A stretch of DNA of 64,000 nt from a virus, in the IMG/VR virus record IMGVR_UViG_3300021963_000063, positions 1-64,000 of that record. One strand, given 5' to 3'. Of this stretch, positions 25,901 through 34,099 are shown in pieces. Below the pieces are notes generated by a model. It was not told the DNA's origin. It saw only the letters and a list, made by a program, of their open reading frames with translations, and searched no databases. The translations under genes were made by a program, and so were the position numbers. Each line of letters begins with the position of its first letter. Position 1 is the stretch's first letter.

Positions 25901-26188
25901 CTAATCAAAAAGAACTTTTTTAAGTGCTGGTTTTGGCTTTGCACCTACAATTGATTTTGTTCTTACACCATCATTATACACCATAATTGCTGGAATTCCA
26001 GAAATACTAAACTCTTTTGCTAGTTCTGGGTTTGCATCAACGTCAATCTTAATTAGCTTTGATCCAGTCTCTTCTGCAATTTCATCTAGGACAGGGGAAA
26101 CCATCTTACATGGTCCACACCATTCAGCCCAGAAGTCTACGATAGTAGTTCCTTCTTTAACTAGCTCATTAAACTCTTCGATATTCAT
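25901..26188 (-). CDS. trxA: thioredoxin, 95 aa
   Basis: Compact thioredoxin with the active site AEWCGPCKM (Cys24, Cys27), buried Asp, and cis-Pro loop FSISGIPAIMVY. It reduces disulfides in the cytoplasm; phage thioredoxins often serve ribonucleotide reductase or polymerase processivity, neither of which can be proved here. A strong AGGAG lies upstream and the leader holds a long structured element (26211-26308), suggesting post-transcriptional control. Confidence 0.92.
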   Translation of the reverse strand: MNIEEFNELVKEGTTIVDFWAEWCGPCKMVSPVLDEIAEETGSKLIKIDVDANPELAKEFSISGIPAIMVYNDGVRTKSIVGAKPKPALKKVLFD

Positions 26189-26856: not shown

Positions 26857-26859
26857 TAG

Positions 26860-26933
26860 TAGGGTGAGTCAGACTTGAACTGACGATTACCGAATTATGA
26901 GTTCGGGGCTTTAACCAACTAAGCTACCACCCC
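26860..26933 (-). tRNA. tRNA-Met (anticodon CAT)
   Basis: 74-nt cloverleaf: D-stem GCTT/AAGC, perfect anticodon stem CCGAA/TTCGG with loop CTCATAA, T-stem GTCAG/CTGAC. The acceptor GGGGTGG/TCACCCT has G.T at positions 1 and 7. A CAT tRNA could also be tRNA-Ile2; the pattern favours elongator Met. Confidence 0.88.
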
Positions 26934-26940
26934 ATATGGT

Positions 26941-26969
26941 GAGCAGTTTAATGTCTTTGCTCAGGACAC
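26941..26969 (-). ncRNA. 29-nt pseudoknot, copy B, upstream of tRNA-Met
   Basis: Minus-strand helices GTGTC/GACAT and GAGCA/TGCTC interleave as an H-type pseudoknot with loops CT, AA and TAAAC. It ends 7 nt before the tRNA-Met 5' end and lies just after the stop codon of the lytic transglycosylase gene. A second copy with compensatory change sits at 29147-29175. Confidence 0.6.
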
Positions 26970-26972
26970 AGG

Positions 26973-27476
26973 CTAATACCAGCCCTTTTTATTAGAATGC
27001 CCTAAAGCATTACATGGTGTTTTATATCTCCCCTTTATATATTTCAAACCCCACTTAATTTGTGTTTCAGGGTTTGTTCTCCAGTCAGCCCCCATTGATG
27101 CCATCTTTTTGCCTGGCAAGGACTGAGGTATTCCATGTGCTCCAGAGCTCTTATTATGTGCGTTTGAACGCCAACCGCTTTCACGGTTCCAGAGCTTAAC
27201 TAAACAGGAATGTTCTTTTGATCCCCAACGATATTTATCTTGCATATAATAAGCAGCAAACTGTTTGTTATATGCTGGGGTTCCGAAGGCAAATCTTTTT
27301 GCAGATCTTGATGCTGCATTTTGCCTTGTTTCATCTACGTCAGTTGTTCTTACAACTAACTTTACTTTCTGCGGTGCCTCATTAGCACTGGTTTGACTCT
27401 GGGTTACTGGTAGGGATACAACAAATGTTGCAAGAACCGCAATAACGGGAATCAAAACCAAGGTTTTGAATCGCAT
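26973..27476 (-). CDS. secreted lysozyme-like transglycosylase, 167 aa
   Basis: N-terminal signal or anchor (about 5-24, Leu/Val/Ala-rich), a linker, then the actinobacterial secreted transglycosylase pattern LWNRESGWRSNAHN, with likely catalytic Glu99, followed by SSGAHGIPQSLPGKKM and WGLKYIKGRYKTPCNALGH. It would cleave peptidoglycan glycan strands. As its gene has its own promoter and a signal peptide, it may be a Sec-exported endolysin or a virion entry enzyme. Two Cys (CLV, TPC) may form a disulfide. Confidence 0.8.
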   Translation of the reverse strand: MRFKTLVLIPVIAVLATFVVSLPVTQSQTSANEAPQKVKLVVRTTDVDETRQNAASRSAKRFAFGTPAYNKQFAAYYMQDKYRWGSKEHSCLVKLWNRESGWRSNAHNKSSGAHGIPQSLPGKKMASMGADWRTNPETQIKWGLKYIKGRYKTPCNALGHSNKKGWY

Positions 27477-27482
27477 TATTCT

Positions 27483-27512
27483 AGTCTAACATGTTTAGTA
27501 TTGACTTGTCAA
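27483..27512 (-). promoter_or_regulatory. promoter of the secreted transglycosylase gene
   Basis: Minus-strand TTGACA (27512-27507), 18-bp spacer, TAGACT (27488-27483), ending 7 bp before the ATG at 27476; transcription would therefore begin at or next to the start codon, as in leaderless mRNAs. Confidence 0.5.
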
Positions 27513-27516
27513 ACTA

Positions 27517-27645
27517 TTATTTATTCTTTGCGTATCCAGTTTTCTTTTTATTCATTGATCCAGGTGTATTATATCCACCTCGATTAGGAACATTTCTAAT
27601 TCTAATTTCTAAAGCTCTTGCAACTTTATCGTGATGCTTACCCAA
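27517..27645 (-). CDS. small basic protein, 42 aa (TTG start)
   Basis: TTG 27645 follows GGAAGGAAG by 9 bases and overlaps the end of the upstream gene. The product is Lys/Arg/Asn-rich (RIRNVPNRGGYNTPGS, KKKTGYAKNK) without a hydrophobic core. It could be a nucleic-acid-binding peptide. Last gene of the 28875-27517 group. Confidence 0.5.
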   Translation of the reverse strand: MGKHHDKVARALEIRIRNVPNRGGYNTPGSMNKKKTGYAKNK

Positions 27646-27778
27646 TTTGTTTTACTTCCTTCCACATATCTTTTGTATTTTCAATTAATAACATTGCTTC
27701 TATCATTGTCATTTGTAATAATTCTTCTTTATCTAAACCCAAGTGTTCTGCATATCTTAGAATTTTTTGTATCATCAT
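27638..27778 (-). CDS. small helical protein, 46 aa
   Basis: Starts by ATGA overlap with the gene upstream and ends 8 bp inside the next one. Amphipathic helices (ILRYAEHLGLDKEELLQM) suggest an oligomerising or partner-binding protein. No family. Confidence 0.5.
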   Translation of the reverse strand: MMIQKILRYAEHLGLDKEELLQMTMIEAMLLIENTKDMWKEVKQIG

Positions 27779-27945
27779 TTTAATTCCGTTTTAATAAATT
27801 CAATAGCATGATCAATTGATCCACCATTTTCTTTAATCCATTCTAATTTATTCAAAATAGTTCTTAAAGTATTTACTCTTACAAAAGCATTTACATTTTG
27901 TAGTTCACGCATTTGATCTCTGTAATAGTATTCATTGTCTGACAC
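27775..27945 (-). CDS. small helical protein, 56 aa (GTG start)
   Basis: GTG 27945 shares its G with the upstream TAG stop (TAGTG), and GAGGAT lies upstream. The protein is helical and charged with no motif. It is joined to the next gene by ATGA. Confidence 0.5.
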   Translation of the reverse strand: MSDNEYYYRDQMRELQNVNAFVRVNTLRTILNKLEWIKENGGSIDHAIEFIKTELK

Positions 27946-28187
27946 TAAATTAAATCCTCTGTTAGTCTTTCAAACTGTGGTAACACTTCTAAATCTTCAA
28001 ACAGTCCCATTTGATTGTGTGGCACAGAAAGATTATCTTCATCTTCATAGTCATCCCATACTGCTGTATACATATCTGCATATGGGTGTGCCATTCTTGC
28101 CATACGTCCAGAAAGATTCATAAGCCTATTTGCAATCCAACGGACTATTGGACCCTTATCAACTTCATGTTCTACTTTAAATTCCAT
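27945..28187 (-). CDS. hypothetical protein, 80 aa
   Basis: N-terminal MEFKVEHEVDKGPIVRWIANRLMNL, an Asp/Glu-rich centre (WDDYEDEDN), helical end. Coupled to the downstream gene by TAGTG. Part of a run of five small genes read toward the transglycosylase. No family recognised. Confidence 0.6.
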   Translation of the reverse strand: MEFKVEHEVDKGPIVRWIANRLMNLSGRMARMAHPYADMYTAVWDDYEDEDNLSVPHNQMGLFEDLEVLPQFERLTEDLI

Positions 28188-28188
28188 A

Positions 28189-28377
28189 TTAATCCTTTGG
28201 TAATGCTGTCATTGTAGCATAAAAACATTCTGCAAAGTTTGCAGCCTCTACCGCAAAATCTTCCATGTGCATTTCAGTTTCACCTAAACGATTTTTAGTA
28301 TAAGTTCTTAACCCTTTTACGAAAATTTCTGTAAGCTCATCTGTTGATTTAATAAAGTAACTTTTCTTATCAGCCAT
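28189..28377 (-). CDS. hypothetical protein, 62 aa
   Basis: ATG 28377 with AAGGGAAA upstream. Helical protein, with DELTEIFVKGLRTY and DFAVEAANFAECFYA helices. One base separates it from the next gene's start. No family recognised. Confidence 0.6.
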   Translation of the reverse strand: MADKKSYFIKSTDELTEIFVKGLRTYTKNRLGETEMHMEDFAVEAANFAECFYATMTALPKD

Positions 28378-28386
28378 TGTTTTCCC

Positions 28387-28683
28387 TTACAACAATCCGT
28401 TTAATTCTGCCATCCTGCGAATTGCTGGATAGTGCTGAAAAACATATTGAAGAACAGCTTTTGGACCAGACTCTACTACATCTTTTGTTTGTTGTTCAAA
28501 CGCAATACGTTCAATCTCTTCATGTGTAGCAAAACCCGAAGGCTTAAACTTGGCGGTAGAAAGATCTTTAGTAACCTTTTTAACCATCATATTAATAGTA
28601 TTAGCCCTGTGAGTATATGTCATTTCTTCTGGTCTAATTTGGACTCCGTTACTAGTCCAAAAAATTTCTTCTGTATCAAACAT
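28387..28683 (-). CDS. hypothetical protein, 98 aa
   Basis: The start at MFDTEEIFWTSNG was chosen because AGAAAGAGAA precedes it; two in-frame ATGs lie up to 33 bases earlier and cannot be excluded. The basic middle (MVKKVTKDLSTAKFKPS) and C-terminal helices show no known motif. Downstream genes follow closely. Confidence 0.55.
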   Translation of the reverse strand: MFDTEEIFWTSNGVQIRPEEMTYTHRANTINMMVKKVTKDLSTAKFKPSGFATHEEIERIAFEQQTKDVVESGPKAVLQYVFQHYPAIRRMAELNGLL

Positions 28684-28722
28684 TAAGTTCTCTTTCTGAT
28701 TTGTCATTATATACATTAAACA

Positions 28723-28875
28723 TTACCATCCTCCAAGACAGTTATTTGAGTGTGTGTGGATCCAGAAGTTGCCTTCTAGATGTTTTCTAGTTGGTGCATA
28801 AAGATCTGTTCCACAAGCACCACAGGTGTGTGACCATTCTTCTGCAAAGAAATCGTATTGAAATCCTCTAGACAT
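28723..28875 (-). CDS. small zinc-finger-like protein, 50 aa
   Basis: ATG 28875 has AAAGGA upstream; the longer frame to 28929 would run into the tmRNA 3' end and was rejected. The protein carries CGACG, then GNFWIHTHSNNCLGGW, giving two Cys, two His and a third Cys in a C2HC-like pattern. Thirteen bases downstream of the tmRNA gene. Function unknown. Confidence 0.6.
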   Translation of the reverse strand: MSRGFQYDFFAEEWSHTCGACGTDLYAPTRKHLEGNFWIHTHSNNCLGGW

Positions 28876-28887
28876 TTTAATCCTTTG

Positions 28888-29140
28888 TGGAGATGTGCGG
28901 ATTTGCACCGCAGTCCTATATGTTTTCAATTATACACTTACACAGCAATATTGTCTAGCCTTTTCTTACATTTTCTTTCATACACGACTTTCTGTTCCTA
29001 TCTAGTCGTCAGACGGCTTTAGTTTATGCAGCTAAAGCGAGGGCAGTTTGTGTTGTGCCGTTTATATTTATTTAGTTTTACAAGTAACTCTCTTGTGCTG
29101 GTGTATAAGTTTCCACATACAGTCGAAACTTTTCATCCCC
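28888..29140 (-). ncRNA. ssrA: transfer-messenger RNA (tmRNA), 253 nt
   Basis: 5' end GGGGATGAAAAGTTTCGAC carries the tmRNA hallmark GTTTCGAC. The 3' end has the T-arm CTGCGGTGCAAATCCGCAC and CATCTCC, which closes the acceptor with GGGGATG (one G.U). The tag frame ends GCT TTA GCT GCA TAA (ALAA). At 253 nt it is short for a bacterial tmRNA (usually about 350-400), implying lost or shortened pseudoknots. It rescues stalled ribosomes and tags products for proteolysis. Only the discriminator and CA follow, so CCA would be added after transcription. Confidence 0.92.
29024..29059 (-). other. tmRNA tag reading frame
   Basis: GGC at 29059 opens GTTQTALALAA then TAA (29026-29024). If the resume codon is the preceding AAC the tag gains an N. 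The C-terminal ALAA matches tags read by ClpXP in bacteria. The exact resume codon is not decidable by eye. Confidence 0.75.
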
Positions 29141-29146
29141 TTGTGT

Positions 29147-29175
29147 GAGTAGTTTAATGTCTGTACTCAGGACAT
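29147..29175 (-). ncRNA. 29-nt pseudoknot, copy A, upstream of tmRNA
   Basis: Minus-strand helices ATGTC/GACAT and GAGTA/TACTC with loops CT, CA and TAAAC, the same layout and length as copy B (26941-26969). It ends 6 nt before the tmRNA 5' end and follows the stop of the gene at 29182. The second helix differs from copy B by a compensatory T-A to C-G change. Confidence 0.6.
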
Positions 29176-29181
29176 CGTTTA

Positions 29182-29571
29182 TTAAGGAATCCACATCTTG
29201 AATTCACGAGTAGTAACTGTCATGTCTGACTTACCTGCGTGATAAACTTCAAGACCAACTGGCTGTCCCTTGTTTGCTTTGAAGAACCATGTTCCACTAT
29301 GAATATTATCTAGTCCTAAATCTAGCATTCTTTGACCTGTAAAGTCTGCCTCCTTAGTTCCAATATCTCTGGTAAAACGGATCTTCATGTTTGCTGCTCC
29401 ACCAAGCTCTGCTACATTAATGTAAAAAGCCCAGTTTGCAATTCCTGTAGTCTTTGGAACAATAGAATCTTCTGCTCCAAAGTCTAATTGTGTCCATGTC
29501 TTAGGACGTATTTTTTGTGGTGCTGGTTTAATTTTTGGATCGCCAGCTTTCCAAGATACATATTCGCTCAT
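29182..29571 (-). CDS. hypothetical beta-rich protein with FKMWIP end, 129 aa
   Basis: Start set at ATG 29571; the longer frame would lie in the promoter. The pattern KTWTQLDFGAEDSI, MKIRFTRDIG, SGTWFFKA and a C-terminal REFKMWIP parallels the protein at 30076-30582 (RWVTLKFKGQDHI, FIKIRLARVG, RQFKMWTP), so they are diverged paralogs flanking the M23 peptidase. It lacks the other's signal peptide. A cell-wall-binding or virion role is inferred from context. Probably translated from a leaderless mRNA. Confidence 0.65.
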   Translation of the reverse strand: MSEYVSWKAGDPKIKPAPQKIRPKTWTQLDFGAEDSIVPKTTGIANWAFYINVAELGGAANMKIRFTRDIGTKEADFTGQRMLDLGLDNIHSGTWFFKANKGQPVGLEVYHAGKSDMTVTTREFKMWIP

Positions 29572-29577
29572 GACCCA

Positions 29578-29607
29578 ATTATAACAAAAACCCTTAACAA
29601 AAGTCAA
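29578..29607 (-). promoter_or_regulatory. promoter giving a leaderless mRNA for the 129-aa protein
   Basis: Minus-strand TTGACT (29607-29602), 18-bp spacer, consensus TATAAT (29583-29578), then six bases to ATG 29571. The expected start point is the A of the ATG. Confidence 0.7.
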
Positions 29608-29630: not shown

Positions 29631-30038
29631 TTAAGATGCAAGAATCTTAGCAGGATCAATATCCTTGCCAGCACTCCATCTAATGTTGTCTCTCATTTCA
29701 AAGTGTAAGTGAGGACCAGAGGAGTTGCCTGTATTACCAGATTCTCCAATGTGCTGTCCCTTTGTTACTTTGTCCCCAGCCTTAACTAGAGCCTTTGAAA
29801 GGTGTGCATAGATTACCCATCCACCTTCAACTTTTTGAACTAACTGTGTGCCGTAGCTGGCACCCCAGGATGCATTTTCAATCTTGCCATCTGCAACAGC
29901 AACAATATTTGTTCCTTCTTTGCAAGCATAATCTACTCCTGTATGGTAGCCCTTAGACCACATTTTACCAAGCTTCTTGTAAGGTGTTGTAACCTTACCG
30001 CCAACGATTGGTGAACCCATTCGAATCACTCTTTTCAT
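29631..30038 (-). CDS. M23 (LytM-type) peptidase, probable endolysin, 135 aa
   Basis: Single-domain M23 metallopeptidase: HTGVDY gives zinc ligands His32 and Asp36, YAHL the catalytic His79, and GPHLHFE His110/His112. The family cuts peptide cross-bridges of peptidoglycan. There is no signal peptide, so export needs a holin or it acts from the virion. It lies between two paralogous FKMW proteins and beside a secreted transglycosylase, so together they form the lytic set. Confidence 0.88.
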   Translation of the reverse strand: MKRVIRMGSPIVGGKVTTPYKKLGKMWSKGYHTGVDYACKEGTNIVAVADGKIENASWGASYGTQLVQKVEGGWVIYAHLSKALVKAGDKVTKGQHIGESGNTGNSSGPHLHFEMRDNIRWSAGKDIDPAKILAS

Positions 30039-32317: not shown

Positions 32318-34099
32318 CTAAATAAAACCAATTCCACTTAAGAAATCTGATATGTCATTTGGCATATCCTTAACACTTTTTTTAGGATCCTGATAAAAAG
32401 TATCCACTTTTTCTTTGTGGCTTGTATCTCTTGAGTCTCTAAAAGTATGTACTTCAATTTCTCTTGTTCCACGAGAAGTGTTTAAGATTGAATTATAAAT
32501 AGCACCGCAGACAGCATCTGCTAAATCTTTAGATCCTTTTCTTGGGTGATCTACTTTATCACGAATAATTCTTAATTGCAATAGCTCATCTACTAGCAAA
32601 TCAATTCTAGGTCCATAGATTCTTTCTTCTGCAACCAGCATCTGCATATCTTCGTAATGCTTTTTGGCTACAGACAAAGTTTCAGAATTCATTCCAAGAG
32701 ATTTGAGTTCATTCATAATATCAAATGAGTTCCATCTATCGAATGTAACCTTCTTAATTCTAAACCCTCTTGATCTAAGTTCAAGAATATAATTCTTTAC
32801 ATCCTTAAACTCAACAGTCTTATCTGCTGTTGGAGTCCACCACCTAACTGCATCAACAACAACAAATGGATTAATTACTTCATGATCATTAAAAGTATTA
32901 ATTGTTACCCACTTATCAACGTGTGCAAGGGCTACCGCACAGTGGTCATGCTTTTGTGCAAGGTCAACGTGAATATAATATTCTTTATCTTCTTGTGGCT
33001 TAAATGATTCAAAGAATCTTCCAGAGGCATCTACACCATTTGTACCACTAAAACAAGTTTCAATCTTTTCTCTTGAACGGAAGAAAGCATCAACAGCGTC
33101 TGGTGGCATACAGGCAAAACGAGAAAGAGCATCAATTGGATTTGTGTAAAATGCAATTTTAAAATCATCAATACTTCTTGTAGGATTGATTTCCCAAGTT
33201 GGTCTGCGTAATGCAAAAACTTTAGGAAACTTGTATGCATTGATATGATCTTCTTCCCATTCAACTGTAAATTCATTTGACGTTACGTTGTCTTCTACTG
33301 TTTCGTCAAGCTTAAATGTGTAGTCTTTAATCTTTACATCTTTGTCTGCAATTACAGCATCATATCTAGTTTGAATATAATCATTTTTATAACGAGGGAA
33401 GGAAAGCAATACTACTTTTCCAAAGTCAGGGAAACGAGAATCTACGGATGCACGATACATCTCATAGATTGCAGAAGCTGTTTTTGCTTGATCATGTCCA
33501 GATGTTGATTCTGTTGCAAAGCCTGAGATCTCATCAAGAATTACACATAGTACGTTGTATCCTTCCCATGATTCTCTTTCAGAGTGACCTGAGTGACAAG
33601 TAATACCTTTGTCAAAAGTTACAGAACCTGCAGTAGGAGTATACCTACCCTGGAACCAAGGTGACTTATCCAATCTTGTTTTAAAACCTTTAAAGAAAAC
33701 ATTCTTAGCCTGTTCAGAGTTAATAGCAATATTAAGAATATCAATAGAGTCACCTGGAGGCTTTCCATAATACTTTGCAGGGTCTTTTAGACACAACAAT
33801 AAATAAACCATATAGCTTACAGAAATGGTTGACATATAATCTTTTCCTGAACCCTTGCCAAGTTGTAAGATTACTTCGTTGCAGGTTTGATTCCACCTGT
33901 CTAATCCAGTTCTTTCTCCATAAAGATTTATCAAAGTTTCTTTTTTATAAATTTGACTCATTGCTTTAATAGCATCGTACTGATATTTTGATAGTGGAGG
34001 AAGACCTAGATAATCTTCTGATGTAACAAACTCTTCAAGTTCAACTGGATTTTCTTCAAACTCATCACCGCCAAGAAGACCAATAATATCTTCAAACAT
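32318..34099 (-). CDS. terL: terminase large subunit, 593 aa
   Basis: Packaging ATPase with Walker A GKGSGKD at about 81-87 and Walker B VLCVILDE with Asp189/Glu190, then the C-terminal RNase-H-like nuclease starting HVDLAQKHDHCAVALAHVD and with a later DAVCGAIYN acidic position. It drives DNA translocation into the prohead and cuts the concatemer. Starts by overlap with the upstream small-subunit candidate. Length is normal for the family. Confidence 0.93.
   Translation of the reverse strand: MFEDIIGLLGGDEFEENPVELEEFVTSEDYLGLPPLSKYQYDAIKAMSQIYKKETLINLYGERTGLDRWNQTCNEVILQLGKGSGKDYMSTISVSYMVYLLLCLKDPAKYYGKPPGDSIDILNIAINSEQAKNVFFKGFKTRLDKSPWFQGRYTPTAGSVTFDKGITCHSGHSERESWEGYNVLCVILDEISGFATESTSGHDQAKTASAIYEMYRASVDSRFPDFGKVVLLSFPRYKNDYIQTRYDAVIADKDVKIKDYTFKLDETVEDNVTSNEFTVEWEEDHINAYKFPKVFALRRPTWEINPTRSIDDFKIAFYTNPIDALSRFACMPPDAVDAFFRSREKIETCFSGTNGVDASGRFFESFKPQEDKEYYIHVDLAQKHDHCAVALAHVDKWVTINTFNDHEVINPFVVVDAVRWWTPTADKTVEFKDVKNYILELRSRGFRIKKVTFDRWNSFDIMNELKSLGMNSETLSVAKKHYEDMQMLVAEERIYGPRIDLLVDELLQLRIIRDKVDHPRKGSKDLADAVCGAIYNSILNTSRGTREIEVHTFRDSRDTSHKEKVDTFYQDPKKSVKDMPNDISDFLSGIGFI

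Follow-up and report, generated by a model that had tools for sequence, protein, structure and literature searches.

A covarying pseudoknot RNA at gene borders of many phages and its possible likeness to the coremin exonuclease block

Small H-type pseudoknots occur in bacterial and phage messenger RNA (mRNA) leaders, for instance the preQ1-I riboswitch and the T4 gene 32 pseudoknot, which are gene-specific regulators and whose loops and consensus differ from those of the RNA element described here; the latter shows no gene preference and no Rfam match. This element was encountered as two pseudoknots of 29 nucleotides (nt) in a 64,000-nt stretch of viral DNA (below, the window) taken from the 96,730-nt virus record IMGVR_UViG_3300021963_000063, where one copy precedes a tRNA-Met and the other a transfer-messenger RNA (tmRNA). 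Other small viral pseudoknot RNAs, the flavivirus and tombusvirus/solemovirus-type exonuclease-resistant RNAs (xrRNAs; for instance xrRNA2 of West Nile virus (WNV) and ST9a), stop 5′–3′ exonucleases, and we know of no sequence likeness between them and the phage element. They are larger than the phage element and consist of stacked helices and a ring that encloses the 5′ end (PMC12412911, in the portion available). It has been reported that a flaviviral xrRNA stops bacterial RNase J1 in vitro (PMC5760640, likewise in part); in principle, then, the chief 5′–3′ exonuclease of bacteria can be halted by a knotted viral RNA.

The closest described RNA is coremin (xrRNA-C), found in RNA3 of beet necrotic yellow vein virus (BNYVV) and in other plant and fungal RNA viruses at intergenic or 3′-untranslated positions, like the phage element (PMC10520033 and PMC5869530, in the portions available). 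The coremin motif, GUCCGAAGACGUUAAACUAC, stops the 5′–3′ exonuclease Xrn1, and the resistant loops are YGAD, YGNNAD, the heptaloop CGAGUAA and the octaloop CGCAAAGC; with the loops CCGAA and CCGAAA, resistance is lost (Dilweg 2023, PMC10520033). According to the same source, spacer nucleotides 18 and 19 (C and U) are crucial for stopping Xrn1, a second hairpin, hp2, is required after the spacer, and coremin variants also stall scanning eukaryotic ribosomes. In its available text this 2023 paper reports no solved coremin structure and holds no word beginning with phage or bacteri and no mention of RNase J.

The consensus of the phage element reads P1 (3–5 bp, any sequence), CU, GRNYA, 1–2 nt, P1′, NNAAAC and URNYC, where GRNYA and URNYC form the second helix, P2. 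Phage copies with the common stem CGUC/GACG have the same stem as coremin, a C as first loop letter, a G and an A within the loop, and the identical seven letters UUAAACU after the stem (CGUC-C...-GACG-UUAAACU). By our own count from the stem written CGUC, coremin nucleotides 18 and 19 are the C and U of the phage AAAC-U, which are kept in the phages, and the natural coremin heptaloop CGAGUAA resembles phage loops such as CUGAGUAA in locus L017. The coremin order of a hairpin hp1 (3–4 bp) and a spacer starting UUAAACU is found in the phage element as P1 followed by NNAAAC-U, the U being fixed in the search pattern. Unlike coremin, the phage element has a free stem sequence and loops of 8–9 nt that pair over 5 bp with the sequence after AAAC; the end of its spacer pairs with the loop, where coremin has hp2. 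The carriers also differ, as the phage element occurs in DNA phages of bacteria and coremin in eukaryotic RNA viruses.

Two pseudoknots and the family to which they belong

Element 1 lies at 26941..26969 on the minus strand (GTGTC-CT-GAGCA-AA-GACAT-TAAAC-TGCTC) and element 2 at 29147..29175 on the same strand (ATGTC-CT-GAGTA-CA-GACAT-TAAAC-TACTC). An earlier note, made from the sequence alone, had claimed here two 29-nt pseudoknots of one layout, and a sequence check and a pattern scan located both. ARAGORN agreed that they end 7 nt before the tRNA-Met (26859..26933, minus strand; also Rfam RF00005) and 6 nt before the tmRNA (28887..29140, minus strand; also Rfam RF00023; tag GTTQTALALAA). The compensated C-G/U-A swap in helix 2 and the G.U in helix 1 which that note had pointed out are both real. 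Its helix 1 layout and its loop TAAAC describe the two window copies correctly and do not extend to the wider family, in which P1 is mostly of 4 bp with a peripheral fifth pair and loop 3 has six nt (NNAAAC). A pattern fitting both elements, with at most 3 mismatches allowed, finds just these two copies in the window, no third copy in the whole record, and no copy of either element in 100 shuffles of the window. The covariance model R1, built from 76 sequences over 28 positions, scores element 1 at 39.9 bits (E 5e-8 over the window) and element 2 at 33.9 bits (E 1.5e-6), with the next best match at E 0.18; both elements are among the 76 rows of the model, and these scores are not independent of it.

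Relaxed scans showed one covarying element across 332 fetched loci, mostly IMG/VR contigs, and element counts from these wider scans are to be read as at least the numbers given. Scans that leave one helix free are independent tests of covariation. One scan fixed P2, left P1 free and considered copies in which five bases separate P2 from TTAAAC. The three inner pairs of P1 formed there in 111 of 112 distinct copies of the GAGCA set (shuffle mean 28.5, maximum 43) and in 75 of 76 distinct copies of the GGGCA set (shuffle mean 18.0, maximum 31). A P1-free scan also yielded many other phages whose free bases pair in new combinations, plus some chance matches. Conversely, with P1 fixed as CGTC/GACG and the three middle pairs of P2 free, all three paired in 111 of 116 copies (shuffle mean 52.6, maximum 66), the P2 types including GAGCA, GGACA, GAGUA, GGUCA, GGGCA, GGGUA and GGCCA. 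At the fourth P2 pair, U-G, which pairs only in RNA of this strand, occurred in 27 of the P2-free copies, against 3 copies with the C-A that would pair only on the opposite strand. Both helices covary in these scans as in an H-type pseudoknot RNA family, and the covariation tests together with the strand-specific excess of U-G indicate a genuine RNA structure family on the strand given above, of whose existence we are practically certain. Further covarying copies in related phages, which the earlier note had named as its test, are therefore numerous. One further pairing count and the invariant columns of alignment A1 are not independent evidence, since the rows were preselected for pairing, CT and AAAC.

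The loops are conserved beyond the helices. When loop 3 was left free, NNAAAC was found in 80 of 87 copies, TTAAAC in 51 and the final C in 86, and the U after AAAC is present in all 449 distinct elements described below, most of whose loci were fetched by patterns fixing that U. When loop 1 was free, CT occurred in 343 of 350 copies and CC in 5, with 0 in the reversed control; this was done within fetched loci, mostly fetched with CT fixed, so that the conservation of CT is the less well tested. A finder for the whole element gave 545 matches (449 distinct) in 4.66 Mb of fetched loci and 0 in the reversed sequence. As the loci were chosen by pattern, only the contrast with reversed sequence counts in this result, and the frequencies of stem sequences are biased.

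Neither gathering nor relaxed thresholds brought up a family at the elements when the 4227 covariance models of Rfam 15 were run on the window and on sets of 18 and 10 loci; the lone exception was a sub-threshold permuted-tmRNA match spanning element 2 (22.7 bits against a cut-off of 47). A literature search found no description of the element in phages, which is weak evidence of absence, as preprints and most subscription papers lay outside that search, and the family is apparently undescribed so far.

Placement at gene borders and spread among phages

In a sample of 269 elements, of which 18 lying inside an open reading frame (ORF) were set aside to leave 251 distinct ones, an upstream stop codon was found for 221; its distance to P1 has a mode of 5 nt (44 of 221), is never below 3 nt and lies at 3–10 nt in 123. 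ORFs for this and the following positional and flanking-gene analyses were called mechanically. Of the 449 distinct elements, 41 inside an ORF were likewise set aside. Downstream of the remaining 408, the first feature is a gene on the same strand (325), a tRNA on the same strand (20) or a convergent gene (29), and 34 have none. Convergent genes (29 of 374) are thus about three times rarer than the 23% expected from gene ends of the same loci, an expectation that rests on 1337 co-directional gaps and 198 convergent ones. The association with structured RNAs that the earlier note had stressed is real and recurrent, and is a special case rather than a defining trait: 16 of the 449 distinct elements end 3–9 nt before a tRNA or tmRNA, 10 of these 16 outside the window's clade, and most elements precede protein genes. 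For instance, the element stands just before the scaffold and major capsid genes in Staphylococcus phages SA13 and B166, Lactobacillus phages phiEF-1.1 and KC5a, and Streptococcus phage Javan271; where the scaffold gene would stand, SA13 and B166 have genes annotated as minor structural protein GP20 and as hypothetical protein.

The flanking genes are diverse, with 178 clusters downstream and 180 upstream, which is what a general device would lead one to expect. PHROG scans with representatives of 63 of the 178 downstream and 68 of the 180 upstream clusters, longer ones preferred, found no listed family that matched more than 2 members. The 25 nt downstream of the element fold hardly better than shuffled sequence (mean −1.11 against −0.89 kcal/mol; 14% below −3), and a run of 5 or more T in the first 14 nt downstream is found in 52 of 449 elements and lacking in 397, including both window copies.

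Named phages of Staphylococcus, Lactobacillus, Synechococcus, Mycobacterium and Corynebacterium gave R1 matches, and so did a microvirus, one Vibrio phage and records of Celeribacter, Bacillus and Streptococcus phages, Roseobacter SIO1, Lactobacillus KC5a and the crAss-like cr7_1, with a marginal score only in Rhizobium TM30; all these targets were picked via blastn matches. The element occurs in named phages of Firmicutes, cyanobacteria, actinobacteria and alphaproteobacteria. Six phages picked regardless of the element (T4, lambda, T7, 80alpha, P-SSM2 and Gilson) gave no R1 match at E 0.01. One phage can carry several copies: nine R1 matches were found in viral contig G398, eight in G399, and seven at E 0.01 or better, six of them below 0.001, in cyanophage S-EIVl. 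Six of the S-EIVl matches were compared with the annotation and all lie in intergenic gaps, five of them 5–11 nt after an annotated stop and 20–26 nt before the next start, and some are off the consensus at a pair or a loop letter. In a microvirus, a single-stranded DNA phage of 6 kb, the element lies 23 nt after the peptidase gene (L374), and a contig that also carries a ROOL RNA and a long array of tRNAs has it 7 nt before a tRNA-Ala (L323). A well-paired copy on the Acinetobacter plasmid p86G (L535), about 660 nt before repM, shows that the element is not confined to phages.

In host genomes, blastn with one stem variant, a search of low sensitivity, gave no match in E. coli. R1 scans gave 1 of 185 in a Rheinheimera-centred class and 5 of 200 in a Planomicrobium-centred class, with about 40 candidates scored per genome and with the five including the centre genome, which had been chosen for its match. 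These host scans are weak and decide little.

A possible 5′–3′ exonuclease block and its alternatives

We tentatively propose, at slightly less than an even chance, that the element is a coremin-like RNA roadblock by which downstream RNA would outlive upstream RNA. The cis-acting pseudoknots would be placed at the cistron borders of phage mRNAs; the hairpin P1 (3–5 bp), with a loop of 8–9 nt usually starting CU, would pair by GRNYA with URNYC beyond NNAAAC and so give a compact knot, at whose P1 a 5′–3′ exoribonuclease, probably RNase J in most hosts, would halt after degrading the upstream cistron. The RNA starting at the knot, be it a capsid operon, another gene or, in the window, the tRNA-Met or tmRNA, would then survive longer, and a knot set directly behind the stop codon would remain undisturbed while the upstream gene is translated. 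The analysis itself establishes the sequence, covariation, strand, positions and spread of the element and the letters it shares with coremin; its folding in vivo, the exonuclease stop, the direction in which this acts and any consequence for gene expression are our inference. An exonuclease block was among the ideas of the earlier note and fits best of them, in the form of a 5′–3′ block and not in that of upstream-mRNA protection, which it had envisaged.

The distribution of hosts is supportive, not decisive. Among the blastn matches listed, those covering at least 80% of the query belong by phage kind mostly to Firmicutes, actinobacterial, cyanobacterial and alphaproteobacterial phages; gammaproteobacterial exceptions with such coverage are one Vibrio phage type, Chaseviridae of Escherichia and Pectobacterium, whose P1 is broken, and Erwinia jumbo phages, whose match lies in a coding region at E 8, and the other gammaproteobacterial matches among those listed cover 53–73% of the query. 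Of 61 genomes in the Planomicrobium-centred class, 59 pass the RNase J cut-off, the host groups in the RNase J counts being inferred from the record titles of the centre genomes. Counted by phage kind, hosts lean to RNase J lineages, with real exceptions, in a contrast uncorrected for phage relatedness or database make-up.

Several observations weigh against the proposal. Two defining features of coremin are missing, since the phage loops (CUGRNYA plus 1–2 nt) are longer than YGAD or YGNNAD and start with CUG, and as a rule no hp2 follows, the downstream 25 nt folding as weakly as described above; for this reason the element may work like coremin and is not called coremin. A scan of viral contigs for tetraloop coremin gave 4 stretches, no more than a rough chance estimate, and the one that was viewed looks coding and was set aside. 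Of the 61 genomes sampled in the Flavobacterium-centred phylum none yielded RNase J, and the crAss-like phage cr7_1 has two copies of the element. The hosts of cr7_1 we take to be Bacteroidota. In the Rheinheimera-centred class, 0 of 56 genomes pass the RNase J cut-off (weaker matches in 4), and RNase J turned up in 11 of the 15 genomes or bins in which the motif matched, and in none of the other 4. Well-paired copies occur in Vibrio phage D456 (loop 1 = CC) and in the Acinetobacter plasmid, and copies with a broken P1 in the Chaseviridae Escherichia Bp7 and Pectobacterium PM1. Counted by record, the exceptions are numerous: one Vibrio phage type makes up 27 records, of near-identical length and place among the matches listed, out of 149 in one blastn and out of 96 in another, and the latter includes 9 Escherichia, 5 Acinetobacter and 5 Prevotella records as well, some of them beyond the matches listed. 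The paired copies in cr7_1, Vibrio D456 and the plasmid suggest that another exonuclease is met there or that the block is general. In addition, phages of RNase J lineages can be without the element, as the R1 scan of 80alpha, P-SSM2 and Gilson shows, and in the window's clade the transglycosylase gene upstream stays constant and the unit downstream varies, a pattern also in keeping with a role in the 3′ untranslated region.

Such a role, in which the knot would block 3′–5′ exonucleases (PNPase, RNase R) and protect the upstream mRNA, for example after an RNase P cut at the tRNA, is unlikely in our view and still deserves weight. The tight spacing to the upstream stop and the constant upstream gene in 36 of 38 clade copies speak for it, and where a tRNA follows at 3–9 nt the copy would lie at the 3′ terminus that RNase P produces. 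Since PNPase and RNase R are nearly universal in bacteria, it would also explain the copies in phages and plasmids of hosts without a found RNase J. Convergent genes, however, should then follow at least as often as other gene ends, and they are about three times rarer; a plain hairpin would be expected to suffice without conserved loop letters, and the likeness to coremin concerns a 5′–3′ block. The stop-to-P1 peak at 5 nt, with nothing below 3 nt, would equally suit a barrier that keeps terminating or drifting ribosomes off the next cistron and uncouples the genes, and coremin is reported to stall scanning eukaryotic ribosomes (PMC10520033, in the portion available). We consider this barrier rather improbable, as copies stand before tRNAs and tmRNA, where a downstream ribosome is irrelevant, and as the nearest upstream feature is a divergent gene, without an upstream stop, in 46 of 408. 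Stimulation of stop-codon readthrough or frameshifting, prompted by the same 5-nt spacing, was rejected because the spacing varies and because what lies downstream can be a tRNA, a gene that has its own start, or a stretch resembling a promoter.

The retention of AAAC in 80 of 87 copies with loop 3 free goes beyond what pairing needs and, with the many copies 20–30 nt before a start codon, would fit a leader or riboswitch type of site at which a protein or small ligand regulates the neighbouring gene. The 178 downstream and 180 upstream clusters, the very wide host range, the up to nine copies in one contig and the lack of a regular hairpin or terminator downstream make such a site improbable, somewhat more so than the ribosome barrier, and gene-specific regulation as such was rejected on the diversity of flanking genes. 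A pseudoknot-based transcription terminator is very improbable: downstream positions 3–9 (+2 to +8 after the element, about seven positions) are T-rich and G-poor (G 4–9%) and the T-runs of the 52 elements would suit it, but the other 397 lack the U-run after the helix that marks an intrinsic terminator, a new promoter would not fit between the element and a tRNA that begins 3–9 nt after it, and convergent ends are depleted. Least probable of all is a maturation signal specific to phage tRNA or tmRNA, or a self-cleaving RNA, as the earlier note had also suggested; the 16 elements directly before such genes, 10 of them outside the window's clade, favour it, but for 433 of 449 distinct elements no tRNA or tmRNA was found within 12 nt, so that the element usually stands where no stable RNA directly follows, and no Rfam ribozyme matches at the element.

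Under the 5′–3′ block, these knots may control which parts of a phage message survive. It is conceivable, with a little less confidence than we give the roadblock itself, that phages of many bacterial lineages cut polycistronic transcripts into parts of differing lifetime by a coremin-like exonuclease-resistant knot, with capsid dosage raised and tRNA and tmRNA shielded from upstream decay; the likeness to coremin would then be convergent or exchanged, and the phage alignment would show a loop–spacer knot that coremin may form in a shorter version. If the block is real, this would be, so far as the literature search shows, the first exonuclease-resistant RNA in bacterial viruses, a simple post-transcriptional setting of gene dosage within phage operons, and one RNA solution that ties phages of bacteria to RNA viruses of plants. 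The tiny element is common and is carried by cultivable phages (Staphylococcus SA13, Lactobacillus KC5a, Synechococcus S-EIVl), and even with another function a widespread, strongly covarying RNA family is new material for phage annotation.

Near relatives and the surroundings of the window copies

An exact pattern covering both window copies found 38 copies in 37 stretches of IMG/VR contigs, which form the window's clade. By eye, from the start or end of the gene, the same small transglycosylase gene precedes 36 of the 38, and the downstream unit varies. According to ARAGORN, a tRNA or tmRNA follows at 4–9 nt in 8 copies (six with tRNA-Met at 7–9 nt, one with tmRNA at 6 nt and one with tRNA-Asn at 4 nt) and a tRNA-Thr at 32–33 nt in 11; the other 19 are followed by a promoter-like stretch, a gene, a tRNA unreported by ARAGORN or the contig end, and one of them, L027, is followed by a probable tRNA as judged by eye. 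The L017 element is flanked by the apparent end of one tRNA and the apparent start of another. Several relatives (L003–L039) have, by eye, a TTGACA-like promoter stretch or a TATAAT-like box shortly 3′ of the element. An upstream hairpin, CTGGT/ACCAG, was rejected as part of the element, being present by eye in only part of the clade and inconsistently kept. In named phages, blastn with the window's tRNA locus gave tRNA likeness and weak or partial matches, and blastn with its tmRNA region gave nothing.

Within the window, the gene upstream of element 1 (26973..27476, minus strand) encodes a lytic transglycosylase with an SLT domain (Pfam PF01464, E 3.6e-6), and its stop codon lies 3 nt before the element. 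The ORF upstream of element 2 (29182..29607, minus strand; ending ...FKMWIP*) stops 6 nt before that element and matched no Pfam family. Hence the description of both upstream genes as secreted or lysis-type, given in the earlier note, is borne out for element 1 and not for element 2. The terminase large subunit (32318-34099, minus strand) shares about 62% identity with that of Gilson and other Streptomyces phages, which points to a likely actinobacterial host for the window phage. Near the tRNA and tmRNA genes lie those of a peptidase M23 domain protein (29631-30038, minus strand) and a thioredoxin (25901-26188, minus strand), and the tmRNA tag of the window phage recurs in the relative L032.

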